Below, piece after piece: positions 14,114 to 57,520 of a stretch of DNA of 64,000 nucleotides (positions within the stretch are counted from its first letter, which is position 1; each line of letters begins with the position of its first letter). This DNA comes from Rugalucina vietnamica. Taxonomy: Eukaryota; Mollusca; Bivalvia; Lucinida; Lucinidae. The notes beneath the pieces are model-generated. The model saw only the letters and a list, made by a program, of their open reading frames with translations. It did no database searches and was not told the DNA's origin. The translations under genes were made by a program, and so were the position numbers. The stretch lies in assembly GCA_964017185.1 (NCBI GenBank), contig OZ024878.1, positions 18,789,851 to 18,853,850 on the forward strand. Reading direction: 5' to 3'.

Positions 14114-15606
14114 TTGATAGGCTCAGCAAACATGTACAGAGGCTCGCTACAGTCCAACGGAAAGCCGGGCCTACCAGGAACTGCAGGAACAGAAAATGCA
14201 GAAGTGGCAGCTGGATTACCTCCCTTGGACCTCCACTTGAAACAAATAACAATTAGAGAGCTTGCAAAAATTCAAGCCAAATCTGTTAGCCGCCCAATGA
14301 AGCAGATGCTAAACAACCTAACCGAGACTACAGAATCCCAGGAAGTACTAAGACAAACCATGTCTCCCATACGCCTGGCCTTAACATACGCCAAAGAGAT
14401 GGAAAGAGAAACCGGAATTGACTACAGACTTATGGAAGAAGAACCAGAGTTTGAAGAGGGGTGTGTAGCAATGACAGCCAGTGCACCACACTACTGGAGC
14501 AGATTGGGGTCATCTAAGACACGAACCAGCGAGCAACAAGGGCAAGGAAAAGAATTAGTGCTGGACATGATGATGGAGGCCCCCGAAGGAACTGCATTTG
14601 CCTTCACAGATGGTAGCTGCCTCACAAATCCAGGTCCATGTGGGACGGGGCAGTTATCTATCTAGACCAACATCAACCAGTACGACTGAAACGGCCAGTG
14701 GCGAAGAGAGGCTCCATCCTGCTTGGTGAGCTGGTTGCTACACTGATGCACTACAGAACCTTGATGCCTTGTCTCACCAGATTATAAAGGTGATCTGTGA
14801 TAGCCAGTCCGCTGTCGGTATTCTAACCCTCAACTGGAAAGATACCAGCTAAAGAGATGTAACAAGGGATATCAAGAAAGCCAGTACACGCCTTGAACAG
14901 TCTGGTGTTCAGGTAGAGATCAACTGGGCCCCTGTTCTATGGCTGGGAATGAAGAGGCAGACAAATTAGCAATGAAGCAAGCCTATTCACAGATGATAGG
15001 AAAACAACCTCAATCAGTGACATTAAGGCAGCAAGTCAGGCATGCACCCTCTCATAGTGGCAAAGAAGATGGAACACAACAGAAGTAGGAAGAACCTACT
15101 ACAAGTACCACCCTAAAGTCAACACCAAAGTACTATATGACCAGCCAACAAAGGAGGCATATTCCATGATACTACAGCTACAGACAGGATATACCTACAT
15201 TAACGACTACAGATCCAAGCTGAACCAAACACTGACAAATAGATGCAGTTGTGGACAAGTTGAAGATACAGAGCACTATCTACTACAGTGTCCCCTTCAA
15301 GATATACATCGTGATGTAATGGCACGTAACCTTGGACAGAAGATTGGCCTGTATCACCTTGATCTCCAACATCTTCTTGGATCTGAAAGCGACAGTAACA
15401 TCCCAGGATATCAAGAGACAGTAAAGTGGGAGCTGGCTGAATACATCAGGGCCACGGGAAGGTTCACATCACCACCCAAAACTCCCTCAAGTCCACGCTA
15501 TTTGCACCATTTTACAAGTACACTAGAGAAAAGTTACATTAGAGAAAAGCCATACCAGACAGAAACCATACATGAGAGATCTGTGTGTCATAAAGGCCGT
15601 GAATAG
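14114..15606 (+). pseudogene. Decayed non-LTR retrotransposon with RNase H domain
   Basis: Frames from the 3' part of an RNase H-bearing non-LTR element are visible in order. FAFTDGSCLTNPGPCG is the first catalytic Asp context of RNase H. Next comes a GELVATL region, then ICDSQSAV with the third acidic position. A GNEEADKLA helix lies near 14,950. A C-terminal zinc-knuckle-like CSCG...EDTEHYLLQC sits in the frame at 15,166-15,606. At least two frameshifts separate these pieces. The RT itself is absent. Confidence 0.7.
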
Positions 15607-15639
15607 CGGACTATCGGAACGGATTCGAGATTTTATGCA

Positions 15640-15830
15640 TTCGATATGGATAGAATGATAAAAAGTAATTACAGGTATAAGATCAGGGAGAAGAGCAGAA
15701 TCAGAAAAGTTTTCTGATGAAACGTCAAACTCAGTGAAAATATAAAACCAGGGGTTGGGCCTTGGCCGGAGGGGATTAGTCCCTAGCGACCACAAGAAAC
15801 TGTCACTCTGATATTTCAGCAAAGGACATC
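15640..15830 (+). repeat. Dispersed repeat, copy 1
   Basis: The segment 'ccggaggggattagtccc' with its surroundings recurs in the same orientation at about 40,375-40,530. Its class is unknown. The 15,830-16,190 stretch holds no recognised gene. Confidence 0.5.
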
Positions 15831-16734
15831 AAAGCTTTCAATATCTTCAAAGGCAGTACGTTGTTAACGATGCTGTGTATTTATTATTTTGTTATCGATA
15901 AATTTACGTACTTTTCCAGAGCAGGACCTCGGATCCTATAATACATTGGATCCGTGGCAGGACATATTGATGAATGGAGTCACTGCTGAGGCCGCTGCAA
16001 GGACTGTGAAAAAAAAGTTCTGTAAAATTAGGAATGAAATCGAACCCAGCTTTAAGCTATGTGTAGCGGCGAGTCATATGAGGCATGGAGAGCAAAAATA
16101 CCAACGACATGTCCAGAGACTTACATGTAACTATTGAGAAAAGTGAGTGATGATCTAGATCTGTTACAATTAGAACCAAAGCGCCACGTCAAAAATAGGT
16201 TAAAAACCCAAACTGACAACCAGAACATGTTGACCGTAAGCTTAGTGAGCATATTTCAGTTTCCCGGCTAAAGACGGCCAGTCAGTTAACCGAACTTAAT
16301 TGAATACACAAATACGAACATAAGAGGCATAAACAGTACAAAATCGACAACAAAACATTCAACAAAGAACCAAAACAGAAGTATCGCCTTGGGACGCGCC
16401 GAAGGTCAGTAATATGATATGCATGGAAATTAAAAAGGTACAAGTAGGCAAATATCAGGAAAAGGCGCAATCAGAAAAAGATTCCCACTCCAAAAACCTA
16501 TGTGGGAAAAAACCAAACTAACAATCAGGAACTTATACCATGATACATATCGTAAGCCGAATGAGCAGCTATTTTCCCAATAGGTGGCCACTCAGTTATC
16601 TTAACTTAACTAAAAATATGAAAACATACATAAGGCGCCAACAGCACAAAAAAAATTATACACCAAGACATAAAACAAAAAGAACCACCACAGAAGTATC
16701 GACTTGGAACGATCAGTAACACAAAGTTACTGGC

Positions 16735-16890
16735 GGGCTTAAACCGGTTTTACATGGCCATAACCTCACCCTCAGCTTCTGCAGTGGTTCATAACATTTA
16801 GTTAGTTATTCGGTCCTCGTGGTGAATCTCTAACTAGTCAATGAATCATCAAGAACAAACAAATAAATCATGATAAACATCCTGATGAAT
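16735..16890 (-). repeat. 3' repeat corresponding to the pseudo-LTR
   Basis: Downstream of the RT frame, this region carries the same sequence as 20,310-20,465. Tail repeats follow toward 16,190. Confidence 0.7.
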
Positions 16891-17052
16891 CAAAAACCAG
16901 GACTCACAGACTGAGTAAGCTGCCCGACGATGGAAATCCCTGGGCGCCGAATAACCTACTAACTCCGGAGCAAAAGAAAAACACCAGTTGGACCCCGGTG
17001 GGCCAAGCAACAGACAAGAAGCTCCGGCCCCAACCAACTAAAATGAATAGCT

Positions 17053-20000
17053 TTATGTCGGGGCCATCATAGAGTCTGACGCCCGACCCACCGGCGTGCA
17101 ATTAAAGAAGGCAGCATAGTTATCAACCATGATTGGGTTAAAAACTAAGCATGCAGACTATACGTCTGTAACGTGTTATGATTTTCCTGAACTGAAAAGA
17201 AAAATCATTAATTCCTTTAAGTTTCTTAAATTTGTAAACCAAGTCACCATAAAATTCAGGTTCCGAAAGGCTCTCACTTAAAAGCGTCTTTAACCCAACA
17301 TTATATTTGGAAATCAATTCATAGTGTCTACGATAAAATTTAGAAAATGTTTTTCGAAGCTTATGATACCGATAGCCCTGTTGGAGAAGTTTTGCCGTTA
17401 AACATTTATTTCGAGCGTTGAAGTCTGTAACATGATTGCAGACTCTAGCAAACCTAATAAGTTGCGAAATGTATACACCATAAGAAGCACGACGAGGAAC
17501 GTCACCATCCAAAAAAGGAAAATTTACTATATCAAAATCAAAGTCATCGCGCTTATCATAAATTTTAGAAGAAACAAATCCATTTGCAACAGGAAGATGT
17601 AGATCTAAAAAGGGGGCTTCAGTATCTGAGATATTGGCTTTGTTCAACTGAAGTTCAGGTGGATAAATTTGATTGACCATACCTTCAAAATAAGGGTTGT
17701 CAATGTTCAAAAGGTCATCGAGGTACCTAGATGTGGAATTAAAAGCCTCGATAACATCAGCTTGATTATCATGGTTAAGAGAATCCATGAAATCTCTTTC
17801 GTAGCAGTATAAAAATAAATCAGCTACTAGAGGTGCGCAATTTGTACCCATCGGAATTCCAACAATTTGTCTGTATAACTTGGTCCCAAATCTAATATAA
17901 ATATTATCAAGGAGATAGGATAAGGCGTCGCATACATTCTGACATGACCAAAGTGTATACCGACTTTGGTCAGAGGAAGTGAAAAAAGCCTTTCTGTCAT
18001 TACATGCCAAATAAAGTGAACCATAGTTTTTAATGCCCTTTTGAAGGTCCACTCTATCAAATCCAGAAGTTTTTCTTTTATTAGATTATGTGGTAATGTT
18101 GTATACAGAGTAGAAAAATCATATGTGGACAAGCTTGTCGCACGGAACCCTCTACACTTCAATATACTGAGCACCTCACCAGAATTTTTAATTGACCAAA
18201 ACCAATTTTTATTAGAAGTTTCATACACTGTCTCACAGTATCTTATAACATGAGATTTGATAGCAGTAAGACAGGAAGTTAATAATTTAGAAAGTTCAGT
18301 GGTAGTACAAGAGCTAGAATTTGCAATAAATCTAGCTTTGTATGGTCTTTTGTGAAGCTTAGGTAACCAATACATCGTAGGAAGTTTGTCTTGGCCTTCA
18401 TTGACACAAACAGAAAACTTAACAGGTAAATCGTTTAAGTGGGCATTAACTACAGACACCTCATCAGTATCTGTCTCCAGATAAGCCCTGGTACCATCAA
18501 GCTCCTGTTTTAAGGTGTTAACGTAGTGAAGCCTACAAACGACAACAACATTGTTTGCGGCTTTATCTGCCGGAACCAAGACATACTTTCTATGAAATTC
18601 TTGGATACCCTGCTTCAAATGCCTAAATGACGATTTGGGTTTAGGAGGTAAAAGATTAGTATTTTGTGAATAAAACTTAATACGTTTATCCACGATAGTG
18701 AAGATACTTCTTTTCCATTCTTTAAGAGCATTATCCTCAACACCCTCTCGTTTACACCATCGATTACCGAAATCATTTAATGCAGATGAAATCTCCTCTC
18801 TACATTTGTCGAAATTAATGTAGGAAGGGAATCTATATTTCGGACCTTTAGAAACAATTTTGCGAATTCTAGAATCCGAAATTATTTTTAAATTTCCAGT
18901 AACAATATGTCCAGCGGGTTGATAGACATGTTTTGAATCTTTACAATCTCAAGACTTAGGAGTATTAGCATGGATATCAAGATCAGAAACAAGTTTATTG
19001 AAATTAAAAATTGTATTTCTGATTGGTTTGTTATATTTGTAACAAATAATAGGAGGTTCTGAATTTTGGAAGTAGGTAGGTATAGACTGTATCACTGATT
19101 TATCCTGGAATATGCTTGGTAAATCAATAAAGTCAATTCCTTTATTGATGAAAGGAATTTTAATAAAACTTCTAATGTGATTAGATTCGGTATCGATAAA
19201 TGGACGAAGAGCATGCTGAGTATAACATCTTGTTAACAGTGCAGCGTCATACATTTGATGATTTCTATCGTAAAATCTATTAGCTTCTGTGTCCAAGGAA
19301 CGTAATGCAGCAATAGGTAGAGAACTAAGATACGACAGCATTGGATGTCGACCGTGAATCCTTAGTTTAACAGCTAAATCATTAAGAGAATGTTCAATTT
19401 CAATGCAGCGCACCGTTTACGTTTGTCATTACCCTTTTTCCGTATACCATGAGATCTAGATTTACGTTTACGAGAGTCCGAAAGTGTAAGTACATCAAAA
19501 TCGGGCATTTTGGAAATATTGCCTTCATGGTAAATGTTGTCGTTAAATCCCAGTGGAAAGGGTGTTTGCAGTAATTTTATCCATTTAAGTTCAGTTTCAA
19601 ATCGTTTAATGTTTTTGAATCTAACTGAAGAATTTTGATCATATGAGATTTTCTCCACTGGTTGAACTTTAACATTATTGGGGGAATGACCAGTGCGCTT
19701 AAAATGCTGGTACAGAAATGTATCATTATTTTTGGGCTTTCTGATTCTACGATAGTGCTCACCAAATCGTTTTTGCAAAGTTCGACAAGTTTGTCCAACA
19801 TATTGCATCCTACAATTGTTTGTATTTCAAGTAATAACATATACAAGATCCATTGATTTTCAGTCTAAATCAGAATCATTAACCACTGAAAATGTCCTAC
19901 CATTCACAGATGAAGTGATAGTAGTCTGAGAGCATAAATGATTGCAACAGTTGCACTTCTTGGCATTGCACTTAGAAATACTAGGGTACATTCCAGGTCT

Positions 20001-20303
20001 CTTGAACGGATTAATATATTTACGTAAAATTGGTGATTTGAGTGGAGATAACCTAATCTGAAGATTATTACGAAACATATTAGAATTAGAAGCTCCGTGT
20101 AGATTAACAGTAGATGCCGAAAATAAATTAAGAGGTGTCACCCTTACAGTAGGTAATAAATTTTGAAAATTGTTAGTTGAATGAGGAATCCGTACAGTAG
20201 ACGCGGCATGCAACCTAAGGGGAGTTAATGTAATTCCTAATCTTTTTGTGATAGTCATAGTTGGAAGTATTGTGTTGATACTGCCAAAAGGAGCGACACT
20301 CAT
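17053..20303 (-). pseudogene. Naiad-type EN-RT polyprotein with three in-frame TGA codons at cysteine positions (copy broken by frameshifts)
   Basis: Order from the N terminus: a Cys cluster KCNAKKCNCCNHLC (residues about 110-123); VNGRTF; the GIY-YIG core VYVIT...MQYVGQT with RF.EH and LYQHF...GHS; a basic linker; a conserved region with PIAALRSL and NIRSF-like segments; the CxC-type motif; PAGHIVTGNL; then RT with DFSTLYTTLPH, GIPMGTNCAPL and SRYLDDLL (YLDD catalytic). TGA codons are at 19,860-19,862, 19,827-19,829 and 18,949-18,951. They sit where relatives have Cys: before 'KS.DLVYVIT', after 'VIT', and as the first residue of the CxC motif (here TGA-D-C). The frame is otherwise open across each. 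True lesions are a frameshift near 19,400, one near 18,050 and a small deletion near 17,165. A downstream stop at 17,053-17,055 fits the family C terminus (DSMMAPT). No host function is expected. Confidence 0.85.
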
Positions 20304-20309
20304 ACCGGT

Positions 20310-20465
20310 TATAGAATAAATAATGCACTTAAACCCGTTTTACGAACCCAACCTTGCATGTCGCCCTCAGCTTCTGCAGTGCACCGAAACATCTATTTAC
20401 TTATTGCTTTGTCTTTGTCAACTAGTCAATGAATCGTCACGGCAAACAAATGAATCATAATAAAC
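20310..20465 (-). repeat. 5' pseudo-LTR of the Naiad-type element
   Basis: Matches 16,740-16,890 in the same orientation, including 'cctcagcttctgcagtg' and 'ctagtcaatgaatc'. It ends just upstream of the first ATG of the element. Confidence 0.7.
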
Positions 20466-21054
20466 ACAACTTAAAATCAACAGTTTTGAAAAGACAATAT
20501 TCCTAAAGATGGCAGGTACGCAGAGCGTGAAGCGATGATAACAGACAACTCTATAACTGCTAAAGTTAAAGACTTTACTTTGATCTAAGGACCATATTGC
20601 ACCATTAGGGGTCATTAACCGAATAAACAGTGGTACCACTTTTAGCTCCTTCAGAAGTAGGTCTTTAAGCCTGATAATTACATGATTCTCCTCTGCTGCT
20701 AATATTGACCAAGTCCTACAGGAACTCATTGAAGCAGCCTATTCTTGGTTTGCAAACAAAAAAAAGAAAGAAAGAAAACTGAACACGTTTTAATCCAGAA
20801 ATGATTTATTTCAACACAAAAACACTACTGGTGATAAAGCCCATATGCGAACACAATTTAAATTTGCTCACAGGTTGATTTGCACACTGGAGTGTCTTTA
20901 CCGGAGCAAATTTACACGCGTGTGTTTGGCGCACGCAGATTGGACTTAAAAGTTATTTTTATTTGATTTTTTATTTGATTTTACGTCCCTTTCAAGATTA
21001 TTTCTGCTCATATGAGACGGGCCAATCATTAGGTGAAGTGAATCGAGAAAAACC

Positions 21055-21205
21055 ACCTGGCACACCCGAAAGCAGAACTTGGCTTGTCTCACATGTGCCC
21101 CTTGTAAGGCTTGAACCCACACCGGACACAGCGGTGAGATGATCGAATGGTTATGAGCGTTTATATAATTATCAGTTCTCTTAGCCACTCGGCCACGGGA
21201 CTTAA
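21055..21205 (-). repeat. tRNA-Leu/Ser-like SINE
   Basis: The minus strand starts GTCCCGTGGCCGAGTGGCTA (tRNA type II A-box context), has B box GGTTCAAGCC, then a body ending 'aggtggtttttctcg'. The extra length between the boxes resembles a long variable arm. It begins about 6 nt after the stop codon of actin A, so it would form most of that gene's 3' UTR. Confidence 0.75.
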
Positions 21206-21208
21206 GAG

Positions 21209-28212
<7,004 letters not shown>

Positions 28213-30681: not shown

Positions 30682-36976
<6,295 letters not shown>

Positions 36977-38819: not shown

Positions 38820-39445
38820 CTAGACGCTATGATGGCCCCCACTTAAAGCTATTCATTTTAGTTGGTTGGGGCCGGAGCTTCTTGTCTGTTGCTTGGCCCA
38901 CCGCGGTTCAACTGGTGTTTTTCTTTTGCTCCGTAGTAAGTTATTTGGCGCCCAGGGATCTCCATCGTCGGGCAGCTAACTGAATCTGTCAGTCCTCGAT
39001 TTTGATTCATCGTGGTGGTTATCATGATTTATTTGTTTGTCCTTGATGATTCATCGACTAGTTCGAGATTCACCACGAGGACCGAACAACTAACTAAATG
39101 TTGTGAACCACTGTAGAAGCTGAGGGTGAGGTTAGGTACCTGTAAAATCGATTTAAGCCCGCCAGTAATTTATAGTACTGATCGTTCCAATGCGATACCA
39201 CTGTGGTGTTTCTTATTGTTTTATATCTTGGTATTAAAATTGTTGTGCTGCTTGCATCATATGTATTTTTTTCAAATTTTAGTTAAGTTTAGGTAACTGA
39301 GTGGCCACCTATTGGGAAAATAGTTGCTCATTCGGCTTACGATATGTTTTCATGGTATGACTGTTAATTTAGTTTTTTCCCACCTCGGTTTTGGGATTGG
39401 CAATCTCTTTCTGATTGCGCCGTTTCCTGATCGTTGCCTACTTGT
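38820..39445 (+). repeat. Naiad 3' region fragment (longer)
   Basis: Begins with the 3'-region sequence that reads GWGRSFLSVAWPT in one frame, as at 16,904-17,101 (minus). It continues through the pseudo-LTR segment ('cgactagttcgagattcacc') and one tail unit to about 39,445. Confidence 0.75.
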
Positions 39446-39544
39446 ACTATTCAACAACCGATTCACAAACTGAATATCGTTTTTAAAAGAATGGTTGTGC
39501 TGTATAGTTATTGTTAATACATGTGTACATAAGCGACTTTAAGT

Positions 39545-39780
39545 AAATTTTAATTTTTTTTGTGCTGTTGGCGCCTTATGTATGTTTTCATATTTTTAGT
39601 TAAGTTAAGGTAACTGAGTGGCCACCTATTGGGAAAATAGCTGCTCATTCGGCTTGAGATATGTTTCATGGTATAAGTACCTGATTGTTATTTTGGTTTT
39701 TTCCCACCTCGGTTTTTGGAGTGGGAATCTTTTTTCTGATTGCGCCTTTTCCTGATCTTTGCCTACTTGTACCTTTATAT
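39545..39780 (+). repeat. Second Naiad tail unit
   Basis: Starts 'ttttttttgtgctgttggcg' and ends 'gcctacttgtacc'. Lying about 100 bp after the unit ending at 39,445, it mirrors the tandem tail arrangement on the minus strand at 16.2-16.8 kb. Confidence 0.7.
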
Positions 39781-47600: not shown

Positions 47601-50600
47601 ACAAAGGCGCTGATCAGCTTCACGGTTACCGCGAAGCTGATCTGCGTCTTTGTTTTCGCCTATGCAGATTGTTGGTTTTCCCATGAGGTGGTTCATATCA
47701 CAGTATCACCACCTTTATTTCGATGCAAGAAAATATCTTTGGGGTTTCCGACCAGGTCTGACTCAAAAACCGGCCACAGTCACAGAGCAAGTCTAGCAGC
47801 TTGAAATTTTGGATTCATTTCATTATGGATCCAAAAGAGTGACTTCCAGATAACAGCATCAGACAAGATGCATGGCATTTCTTAACATTACGAAAACTTG
47901 CCCATGCAATAAACAGATATATTTTAGCTTTAAAAATTGAAAAATTTCAGCTGAAAAATTATGTTATCGTGATGAATGCTTCAGTATTCAGCCTTCAATA
48001 TCTGCTCCACTGGTAGCATGGCTGATTCCTAATGACATGGACCTGAAATTGAGCCCGAAATAGGCACATTTCTTTTACGAAGATTTGGTCATGAAAACTC
48101 TCTCTTCCATTGTCAGATTCAAGAAGAGCATTTTAAGTATTGGTAAGTGGTGAAAATATTTGCACTAAGAACTGGTAATCTATCTGGGAGGCTTATTCAG
48201 AAACAGTGTGGTTACCGGTACTGTTTGGATAACTGATACTTTGACATGACCTCAGCCATAAAAATTTAGAATTTCATATCTGAAAAAATTGGATATCTTT
48301 AATATTTTTGCTATGTTTTGGATCAAAAATAAGAATAACAGGTACCGGTACACACCTGCAAAGGGTATTCATTGCATGGACATGTTATCCTGGAGAATTA
48401 ATATTTTTTTCTATCTTTCAGACTTATTCAACAACCCTGTAGCTCAGGAGTCAGACTATCGGCTGTTTGTCATACATTCTGTACCTTCGGTTGATCTGCT
48501 GGACAGACAAGGTAAAATAACATTGTGTGACAAATTGTGGCAAATTCAGTTGAATAACATTGGGTTGCATTTGCACGGCTTAATTCCAGTCATCCTGACC
48601 TTTTGTACATTTGATTAAAAAAAGTGTTCTTTGTTAACTTTGATGGGACATGAAAACCAACAGCAAAATATGCACCAGTCATTTGTAACCACTGTCCCCC
48701 ACCTACCTGATTTGAAGCTTATGCACCAGTCATTTGTAACCACTGTCCCCCACCTACGACGGCGTAAGAGTGGGGGATAGCCGGGCTGAAGTGCAGGGCA
48801 ATTTTCGAGTGTCCCCGCAGTGCAGGGGAAATGACGGGTTTTTGACATTAGGATCGTTACCCCAAGGAGATTTTCTATTGCTAAGGGCAGGGCAAAGAGA
48901 ACAGTTTTGACCTCCAGTTTGCCCCCTGGGGGTGGGGCTTATAGCAGAGCACTGAAAGCTGAAAAGTCATAATCCCCGCCCTTCCCCGTTACAAATGACT
49001 GGTGCTTTATTGAATCTGTTTCCACAGATCACATGGGTCTGGCAATTTCTCTTTGTGGGACACAGGCAAACAGCATAGCCCAGATCATGTGACACTCCAG
49101 AATTTGGCATCACATCTGGGGCTGTTGGTTTGCTTAGAGAGTACCCACTGTGTATGTTTTGGATCAAAAATATGAAAATCAGGTATACCCCTGCAAACCC
49201 CAGTTTTACTATATAAAAGTGAGGTTTAAGGAGTTATACATTTCGCAAACATGTTTTCCTGATGAATAGGGTTAAAACTTTTCTTATTTCCCATTGTTGT
49301 TTCAGAGGTGCTAAAGGGAGAACGGGAGGCTGCCAAAAAAATATATGACCAGGAACAGGAAAAAATACGGGAAACTGTTGCATTTGGAAGGCGATCTGAG
49401 GGACCACCTGGGTTATATTATCCTGCCAAAGAAATGCATTTAACTAAATTTGGTAGGTATTTCTTTCTGTGTCAAAATTTGCTTTTGGGTAAATTATTAT
49501 ATTCAAATAATTTTTTTTTTCATTGTGATTTACATATATGAATTTTGCAGTGCCTAATGATACATGCAGCATAAAATTACTGACTGCTACTGTTTATTAT
49601 ATGCATTTAATGGGCGTACTATTGTACATACAGATCTGAAAATAATTTAAATCTGGGTAGAAAGCTGATCTCGTTGATTGACAATTCTGTCCTTAAAGGT
49701 ACCAATTACTATAAATAAAAAAGTTACCAAAAGAGTTTGAATTAACACGGGGGTTAAACGATGCTACCTGTGCTGTCGTCGGAGACATTTGTTTACCATT
49801 ACATGCAAAACTTGCTATCATCCAACTCCGAGTACATGTATATTGACAGTCATATCATGTCTAGGATGACAACAAAATAACTAGCACCATATTTATGATT
49901 GTTGACCATATACATGTACTTGGACATCTTGGGTTTGCATGTGATGATATACAAATGTCTCACGTGGGACATGACTCCGTAGCACAGGTAGCATCATTTG
50001 AATCACACCATGATTAAATAAGTTCTTTAAGTAACATTCTGGAACCAGTTGTTCAAAATTAACGACATCATTTGTTAACAATTTGTTAAAATTTCAAACA
50101 TGAATATTACAAATACAGTTATTTTTTGTTGATAAAATGTGAGAATCCTTTGCAATGCAATGTAAAGGATTCTCACATTTTATCAACAAAAAATAACACT
50201 GTATTTGCTTACGTAGTCAGCATTTACTTAACGAGTTAAGATCTTAACGATGACGTTAAGCTAATGAAGTTTTGAACAACTGGCCCCTAATCATTAAGGA
50301 ACCCTTTTCAGGACCTCAGTTACCTAAGAGATTTATAAGACCCGATTCAGGTAGTGTTGCAGTGACATTCCGTTATTAAATAACATTTTTCCCATGTTTT
50401 GCTAAACCATGTTTGTTTTGAAAGTTTGGTGCATTGTGGGCTGTGTCTCTGTTTCCTGTTTGATTTTGAATGTTTGAGAGTTTTTTCCTTTACAGAAATT
50501 ACCAATATACATGTACATATAATGTTTGAGAACATGATGCCAAGATAATCACTTTATGATAAAAGTTTTCAAATTGAGCAGTTCAATCTTGTCACAAAAG

Positions 50601-55865: not shown

Positions 55866-56100
55866 GAGCCTGTGCATGAGAAAACCAACAATTTGGGTTT
55901 CAGACCAGGTCCAACACAAACCAGCCTGTACAGTCACAGAAGAAACCCAGAATCTTGAAAATTTGGGAATAAGTAGAGGAGGAAATGTACTATCCGTGTA
56001 GCGAAAACAAAGACGCTGATCAGCTTCGCGGTTACCGCGAAGCTGATCTGCGTCTTTGTTTTCGCCCATGCAAATTGTTGGTTTTCTCATGCACAGGCTC
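55866..56100. mobile_element. MITE family A, copy A19
   Basis: Target duplication AAAT (55,862-55,865 and 56,101-56,104). It is in opposite orientation to A18, about 50 bp away. Confidence 0.9.
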
Positions 56101-57044: not shown

Positions 57045-57520
57045 AAAACAAGTAGAACTTGAAACTGGACCATGAACTTCACGTGTAACTTAAACTAGGC
57101 CATGAAACCAACAAGAAGAACTTGAAACTGGGACATGGCCTTCACATGTAGAACTTAAACTAGGCCATGAATCCAACATGTAGAAATTCTACGTTGAATT
57201 CATGGCCTAGTTTTCATACATGTGAAGTTCATGGCCCAGTTTCAAGTTCTACTTGTTTAATTCATGGCCTAGTTTGTCATACATGTGAAGTTCATGGCCC
57301 ATTTTCAAGGTCTACTTGTTGGATTCATGCCAGCTTCAAGTTCTATACATTGTGTTCATGGCCCAGTTTCAAGTTCTATATTTGGGTTCATGGTCCCCGG
57401 TGATTTCAATTTCCATATGTGAGATTCATGGCCCAGTTTCAAGTTCTACATGTGAGATTTATGGCCCAGTTGCATGTGTTTCAAATCTGTATGTAACATT
57501 CATGGCACAGCTTCAAAATG
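57045..57520. repeat. Minisatellite with an inversion
   Basis: Diverged units of about 35-40 bp contain 'ttcatggcccagtttcaagt'. Units before about 57,185 are in reverse orientation and units after it in forward orientation, giving a palindromic junction near ATGTAGAAATTCTAC. Confidence 0.75.

Follow-up and report, generated by a model that had tools for sequence, protein, structure and literature searches.

In-frame TGA codons at conserved cysteine positions and a SECIS match across the stop codon in a decayed Naiad-type retroelement of a lucinid clam

The stretch of Rugalucina vietnamica DNA analysed here (64,000 nucleotides of contig OZ024878.1; "the window") carries on its minus strand a retroelement, which we call copy 1, whose reading frames contain three TGA codons. 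The locus raises the question of whether these codons are ordinary nonsense mutations in a dead copy, with any SECIS score at its 3' end due to chance, or sites at which relatives of the element insert selenocysteine (Sec). Our answer, which we hold with high confidence, is that copy 1 is a dead Penelope-like retroelement of the Naiad type, that its active relatives produce a selenoprotein, and that the SECIS lies at the end of the ORF.

Architecture of the element and its TGA codons

The hallmarks of Naiad Penelope-like elements are a GIY-YIG endonuclease (EN) domain N-terminal to the reverse transcriptase (RT), a CxC linker, an insertion-in-fingers domain, pseudo-LTRs, and the lack of a canonical hammerhead ribozyme. 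The features of copy 1, in order along the minus strand, are as follows.

20361..20466, minus strand: pseudo-LTR-like direct repeat, 5' copy, upstream of the ORF
20303 or 20258, minus strand: possible start Met of the endonuclease frame (candidate only)
19374..20339, minus strand: endonuclease frame, N-terminal, open if TGA is read as Sec
19860..19862, minus strand: site 1, TGA, ..SDLD-U-KSMDLVY..; Cys (TGT) in relative L001
about 19689-19847, minus strand: GIY-YIG stretch (PF01541, E 8.4e-06, 26.4 bits, cut-off 22.6)
19827..19829, minus strand: site 2, TGA, ..YVIT-U-NTNNC..; Cys (TGT) in L001; Cys as well in relatives P0061, P0081, P0086 and P0089
17827..19416, minus strand: linker and first RT part, open if TGA is read as Sec; the family match changes frame at about 18035
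18949..18951, minus strand: site 3, TGA, ..TPKS-U-DCKD.., first position of the CxC linker; Cys (TGC) in L001
17138..18085, minus strand: second RT part, in a different frame (family alignment)
17053..17157, minus strand: last coding piece, matching the C-terminus of relative P0184 at 34 of 34 residues, ending ..RASDSMMAPT then TAA (17055-17053)
16766..16879, minus strand: pseudo-LTR-like repeat, 3' copy, 73.7% identical to 20466-20361
16431..16438, minus strand: probable 3' end of the element, where four other fragments in the window lose their match

The PF01541 match lies in the upstream frame, with RT-type family sequence downstream; the linker motif reads U-D-C in copy 1 and C-K-C in L001, and our second protein search gave 10 relatives, among the best 120 of 1,281 matches, in which site 3 is Cys and CxC is intact. 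The direct repeat (20466-20361 and 16879-16766, 73.7%) corresponds to the pseudo-LTRs, and an Rfam scan of window positions 14500-22500 gave no hammerhead ribozyme match up to E 5. Pfam matches to RVT_1 are below the cut-off in both copy 1 (E 0.085) and L001 (E 2.2e-04); the alignment to the family is clear. The endonuclease frame is 99% identical to P0014 over 144 aa. A Pfam scan of four relatives (P0184, P0123, P0181 and P0001) gave no family, P0123 had no sequence match in the PDB up to E 0.01, and a search of viral contigs returned zero relatives. In P0014, about 300 aa of unrelated protein, in which we read a PHD-like Cys stretch, precede the N-terminal part of the element, which continues as far as site 1; the fusion may reflect insertion into another gene or element.

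Partial tandem copies are usual for Penelope-like elements. A direct repeat of 72% identity (16396-16276 versus 16711-16586, minus strand), one copy of which lies directly past the 3' end of the element, is perhaps such a partial tandem copy.

The endonuclease frame (20339-19374) holds sites 1 and 2, and the RT frame (19416-17827) holds site 3. Alignment to relatives places three frameshifts in copy 1, at about 19404, 18035 and 17158. The first divides the endonuclease frame from the RT frame and is crossed by P0016 without a change of frame, and the other two points are crossed by P0184 in a single frame; because these relatives cross the same points in one frame, the frameshifts look like private decay. 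Copy 1 is frameshifted and dead, such that it cannot give rise to a single-protein product. This is what favours random decay as the origin of the TGA codons. Against it, the three stops are all TGA and all fall at conserved Cys positions. A preliminary description of this DNA, made from the sequence alone, had located TGA codons at exactly the three minus-strand positions listed above and had claimed that no TAA or TAG accompanies them; indeed, neither occurs in the endonuclease or RT frame before its frameshift, the first TAG in each lying past that point (19376-19374 and 17829-17827, respectively). Its reading of the linker motif as TGA-D-C is correct, Cys is retained, as it described, next to the sites in the Cys-rich stretch and at the second Cys position of CxC, and its assignment of the three sites to cysteine positions is borne out by alignment to TGT or TGC codons in L001.

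The same codons in relatives

L001 is a 4.6 kb contig (QIJL01000205.1) filed under a Flavobacteriales MAG, in which it is probably a contaminant, and carries an intact Naiad-like element of the Cys type. It has the same domain order as copy 1, with GIY-YIG and a weak RT match in a frame of 1,013 codons that has no in-frame stop and no TGA. The two elements are 33% identical in the RT and all four sites discussed here align, but L001 has Cys at each of them (TGT, TGT, TGC and TGC at sites 1 to 4). An Rfam scan of L001 gave nothing up to E 1 and hence no SECIS. A genome contig search also returned L002, a Bathymodiolus symbiont MAG with a short, decayed piece, which we left out of the comparisons.

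Three protein searches gave 449, 1,281 and 329 matches, and the best 120 of each were tabulated. Relatives were compared as proteins, and rows with a gap stay in the counts, 3 for each of sites 1 and 2 and 1 for each of sites 3 and 4. At site 1 (best 120 of 449), 31 relatives have W, 9 end exactly before the codon, 1 has L, none has Cys, 76 start after it and 3 have a gap. At site 2 (the same 120), the corresponding rows are W 28, Cys 4, start after 75, end earlier 10 and gap 3. At site 3 (best 120 of 1,281), they are W 24, exact end before 1, Cys 10, S 2, R 1, start after 81 and gap 1; hence Sec at site 3, if it is what the W and the exact end denote, is not universal. The listed relatives that reach sites 1, 2 and 3 thus number 41, 32 and 38, and 40, 28 and 25 of them, respectively, have W or an exact end. 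This argues against random decay and, indirectly, against the case that the preliminary description had named as refuting it, TGA codons private to copy 1. A start after a site is, taken alone, weak evidence, above all for the 81 at site 3, because starts depend on where a Met lies. In the first search (best 120 of 449), 63 proteins start at the first Met after site 2, 7 residues downstream of the site, and 16 of these 63 terminate on the residue preceding site 3. Eleven of the 16 share a length of 286 aa, with that Met as their first residue and the neighbour of site 3 as their last; the sizes of their clusters, as listed, add up to 3,425 members, and no other protein of 286 aa is among those fetched. 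The counts of 63 and 16 were made by regular expression, as was that of the 88 proteins discussed below.

W at these positions could arise in several ways. The first is a nuclear code that reads TGA as Trp, which W at the sites in relatives would fit. Such a reassignment would not place W at conserved Cys positions, however, and the same sites act as stops in nearly identical proteins, in a comparison of W-bearing with bounded proteins that a regular expression had selected: P0110 is 98.4% identical to P0122 over 186 aa and ends exactly at the W of P0122. We know of no animal nuclear code of this kind, and we reject the explanation as having a vanishingly small probability. A second possibility, A>G editing of TGA to TGG, was also rejected: for each of P0001, P0002, P0005, P0015, P0122 and P0123, the differences from bounded relatives include at most one change explicable by A>G. 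The most satisfactory reading of the W, made at the protein level, is TGA under translation table 4; TGG is hard to reconcile with the exact stops in 98%-identical copies and with the lack of an A>G excess. We infer TGA as the codon in the relatives, decoding of UGA as Sec, and past or present activity of the family by this route.

A fourth site lies in the RT.

18535..18537, minus strand: site 4, TGT (Cys) in copy 1, ..NNVVVVCRLHY..; TGC (Cys) in L001

Among the best 120 of 1,281 relatives in the second search, site 4 is Cys in 69 and W in 33, and 7 end exactly before it, such that W or an exact end is found in 40 of the 120; one further relative ends within three residues of the site, and the remainder have F (3), Y (1), an earlier end (4), a gap (1) or a start after the site (1). 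All seven that end exactly before site 4 (P0229, P0230, P0232, P0236, P0237, P0239 and P0240) have Cys at site 3, so that the Sec sites seem to differ among families. Site 4 is possibly a new Sec site, judging from these predicted proteins.

This variation bears on whether Sec has any special redox or metal role in the element. Once a SECIS had been captured, Cys and TGA codons might drift into one another at little cost, the sites then having no such role and the SECIS doing no more than permitting them, an explanation compatible with a selenoprotein element. The varied usage among listed relatives fits such neutral exchange, with Cys in 4 of 32 at site 2 and 10 of 38 at site 3, and with the mixture of Cys, W and exact ends at site 4. 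Against it, Cys is found in none of the 41 listed relatives that reach site 1, and the first Cys residues of the neighbouring Cys-rich stretch stay Cys in nine aligned EN proteins, which suggests favoured positions. We regard neutral exchange as a serious contender, with a probability only slightly under even. Under the selenoprotein reading, possible roles of Sec at these positions are metal binding, redox control and neutral exchange with Cys.

Two observations concern the origin and history of the relatives. P0269 and P0298 are named as proteins of Candidatus Thiodiazotropha MAGs, on contigs of 3-4 kb; because Candidatus Thiodiazotropha lives in lucinid clams, these are probably host contamination and point to bivalves. 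Separately, some relatives are dense in sense-strand A>G changes: P0342, P0321, P0316, P0302, P0300 and P0265 when compared with P0123, and P0318 and P0330 when compared with P0271. Of the 472 residues aligned between P0342 and P0123, 162 differ, and A>G alone would explain 159 of these differences; the corresponding figures are 120 of 124 for P0321, 126 of 133 for P0316 and 54 of 63 for P0302, versus 27 of 143 (P0174) and 17 of 85 (P0271) in comparisons without the pattern. The pattern suggests ADAR-type editing of the element RNA before reverse transcription, and the hypermutated copies are possibly new.

A SECIS match across the stop codon

The 3' end of copy 1 and two further copies in the window contain or lack a SECIS as follows.

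17011..17078, minus strand: SECIS of copy 1, straddling the stop codon (RF00031, SECIS_1, 37.4 bits, gathering 35, E 8.6e-05 in 8 kb, cmscan)
38821..38888, plus strand: weaker SECIS match in a second copy, truncated at its 5' end (30.8 bits against a gathering score of 35; E 0.044 over the 64 kb)
25709..26883, plus strand: third copy, decayed, RT end and 3' region, with the SECIS-bearing stretch deleted

The match in copy 1 is the only one at gathering level among 4,227 Rfam families in the 64 kb window (E 6.9e-04). It has a long lower helix, an AUGA/GA core (AUGA 17070-17067; 3' GA 17024-17023), a 10-bp helix, an AUAAA bulge and a small upper helix, and its predicted fold of -40.3 kcal/mol compares with a shuffle mean of -26.3 (z -4.66; 0 of 200 shuffles as good). 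The 3' region of the second copy (38822-39447, plus strand) is 86.4% identical to copy 1 over 641 bases and in our own reading is in frame, ..DAMMAPT followed by TAA; the predicted fold of its SECIS does not surpass those of shuffled sequences (z -0.62). From the third copy the Rfam scan gave no SECIS match, the stretch having been lost by deletion. Up to E 0.5, the only two SECIS_1 matches in 64 kb are both in this element, at the same place in it. Some sub-gathering matches to miRNA families in the window have lower E-values than the SECIS, so the E-value alone is not decisive.

Other Rfam and repeat observations in the window are set out here in their own right. The miRNA-family matches, MIR1120 (E 3.1e-08), MIR1513 (5.7e-05) and mir-5595 (9.1e-05), all far below gathering (50118-50197; 57051-57253; 56003-56063), are probably hairpin-forming repeats. 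A weak twister-P1 match at 16745-16681 (20.8 bits versus 67.2) was dismissed. Further 3'-region fragments of the element lie at 38822-39447 (plus strand), 39551-39779, 36334-36466 and 26586-26883; all four lose their match at 16431-16438 of copy 1, and this common end marks the probable 3' end of the element.

Two features of eukaryotic selenoproteins are present in copy 1, namely in-frame TGA at Cys positions of relatives (three sites) and a SECIS downstream in the transcript (RF00031, 37.4 bits). The SECIS does not lie wholly within a 3' UTR, since 26 bases at its 5' end (17078-17053) belong to the final codons and stop of the family ORF. The family C-terminus is ..NCTPVGRASDSMMAPT*, and copy 1 encodes the same residues and the TAA (17055-17053) at 17157-17053; a Met codon and the A that follows it form the AUGA core, and the UAA lies inside the bulge. 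The preliminary description had suggested looking for a SECIS on the minus strand of 16190-17052; one exists above the gathering score, but that range would have lost most of its 5' arm.

The C-terminal motif was found in 88 of the 345 fetched proteins, most of which are closely related and so do not represent independent events. In 79 of the 88, the Met precedes M (68 proteins), T (10) or I (1), the codons of which start with A, as the AUGA core needs. The other nine have VV (3), VM (2), IM, IK, MV or IR (1 each), and six of these nine (P0289, P0302, P0316, P0318, P0340 and P0342) are A>G hypermutated. In our reading, P0326 runs through the SECIS region out of frame and shows W at the place of the TGA in the AUGA core of copy 1, which agrees with translation by table 4 and is no proof of it. 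The motif is absent from P0181, which has Cys at sites 3 and 4, and from P0226, which has Cys at site 3 and W at site 4. Some families stop just short of it, for example P0295, which starts after site 4 and ends ..GRISD; the overlap of SECIS and ORF is therefore not universal. With somewhat better than even confidence, we propose that in this lineage the SECIS forms an integral part of the ORF's end, with the C-terminal ..SDSM(M/T) kept for the RNA signal, and that families of this abundant retroelement switch between Cys and Sec in the EN, linker and RT. The stop-straddling SECIS is possibly new.

A SECIS match of this strength across 64 kb and 4,227 families, with a weaker counterpart at the corresponding position of a second copy, is difficult to attribute to chance. 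Together with the positions of the three stops and the state of the same codons in relatives, it leads us to reject random decay as very improbable. The reading put forward in the preliminary description, descent from a selenoprotein Naiad with TGA codons that are not random, is very likely right, given the Cys homology, the block shared among relatives and the SECIS.

A further alternative is that UGA is simply read through by a near-cognate tRNA, or used for regulated termination, yielding EN and RT parts without selenium. In its favour, UGA is the leakiest stop codon, and the stretches between the sites are long and open. Three or four readthroughs would multiply to a very low yield, however; the sites are Cys in L001; and a downstream SECIS is present that plain readthrough would not need. 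We consider this explanation improbable.

Selenocysteine in an abundant retroelement, and known systems

Under the preferred reading, that active relatives of copy 1 make a selenoprotein, the RNA of the element would bear the SECIS at the extreme end of its ORF. The SECIS would recruit the host machinery (SECIS-binding protein, EFSec and tRNA-Sec), such that the upstream UGAs are read as selenocysteine and a single EN-linker-RT protein is made; without this machinery only short pieces would result. The three Sec would replace two Cys of the GIY-YIG Cys-rich stretch and the first Cys of the CxC linker. If this is true, an abundant retrotransposon relies for its spread on the selenium and the selenocysteine machinery that its host supplies. 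The use of Sec in an RT, and at Cys-rich positions of a nuclease that perhaps bind metal, would differ from its usual catalytic redox role. Gene callers truncate such proteins at the blocked codons or print Trp, and thousands of public predicted proteins are probably fragments. A SECIS that lies over a stop codon would also provide a clean test of where in animal messages the signal is permitted. The stop-straddling SECIS and the fourth site are features that a specialist may not expect.

Naiads were reportedly described in 2021, and those of spiders and clams are said to encode selenoproteins with several selenocysteines. These elements reportedly resemble copy 1 in having an N-terminal GIY-YIG, a CxC linker, a C-terminal RT and several in-frame UGAs, and a bivalve setting is likely; copy 1 would be a new copy of a kind of element already reported. 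What is added to the case for selenoprotein Naiads is a scored SECIS and a Cys outgroup at the DNA level. A literature search of limited coverage gave no paper on Penelope-like elements with selenocysteine or selenoproteins, which says little.

The SECIS of the fowlpox virus GPX4 gene was reportedly placed within coding sequence in 2007. Two reviews describe a functional SECIS inside the coding sequence of a fowlpox gene (PMC8310308, PMC6769590), and one of them places all the cellular counterparts in 3' UTRs (PMC8310308). The SECIS of fowlpox GPX4 and of copy 1 both overlap coding sequence; the former lies within the ORF, whereas in copy 1 the coding sequence reaches just 26 bases into the SECIS and the stop lies in the bulge. 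Human and mouse selenoprotein P mRNAs have 10 UGAs and two SECIS (PMC5133445); they share with copy 1 several UGAs per mRNA, selenoprotein P being a secreted protein of the host.
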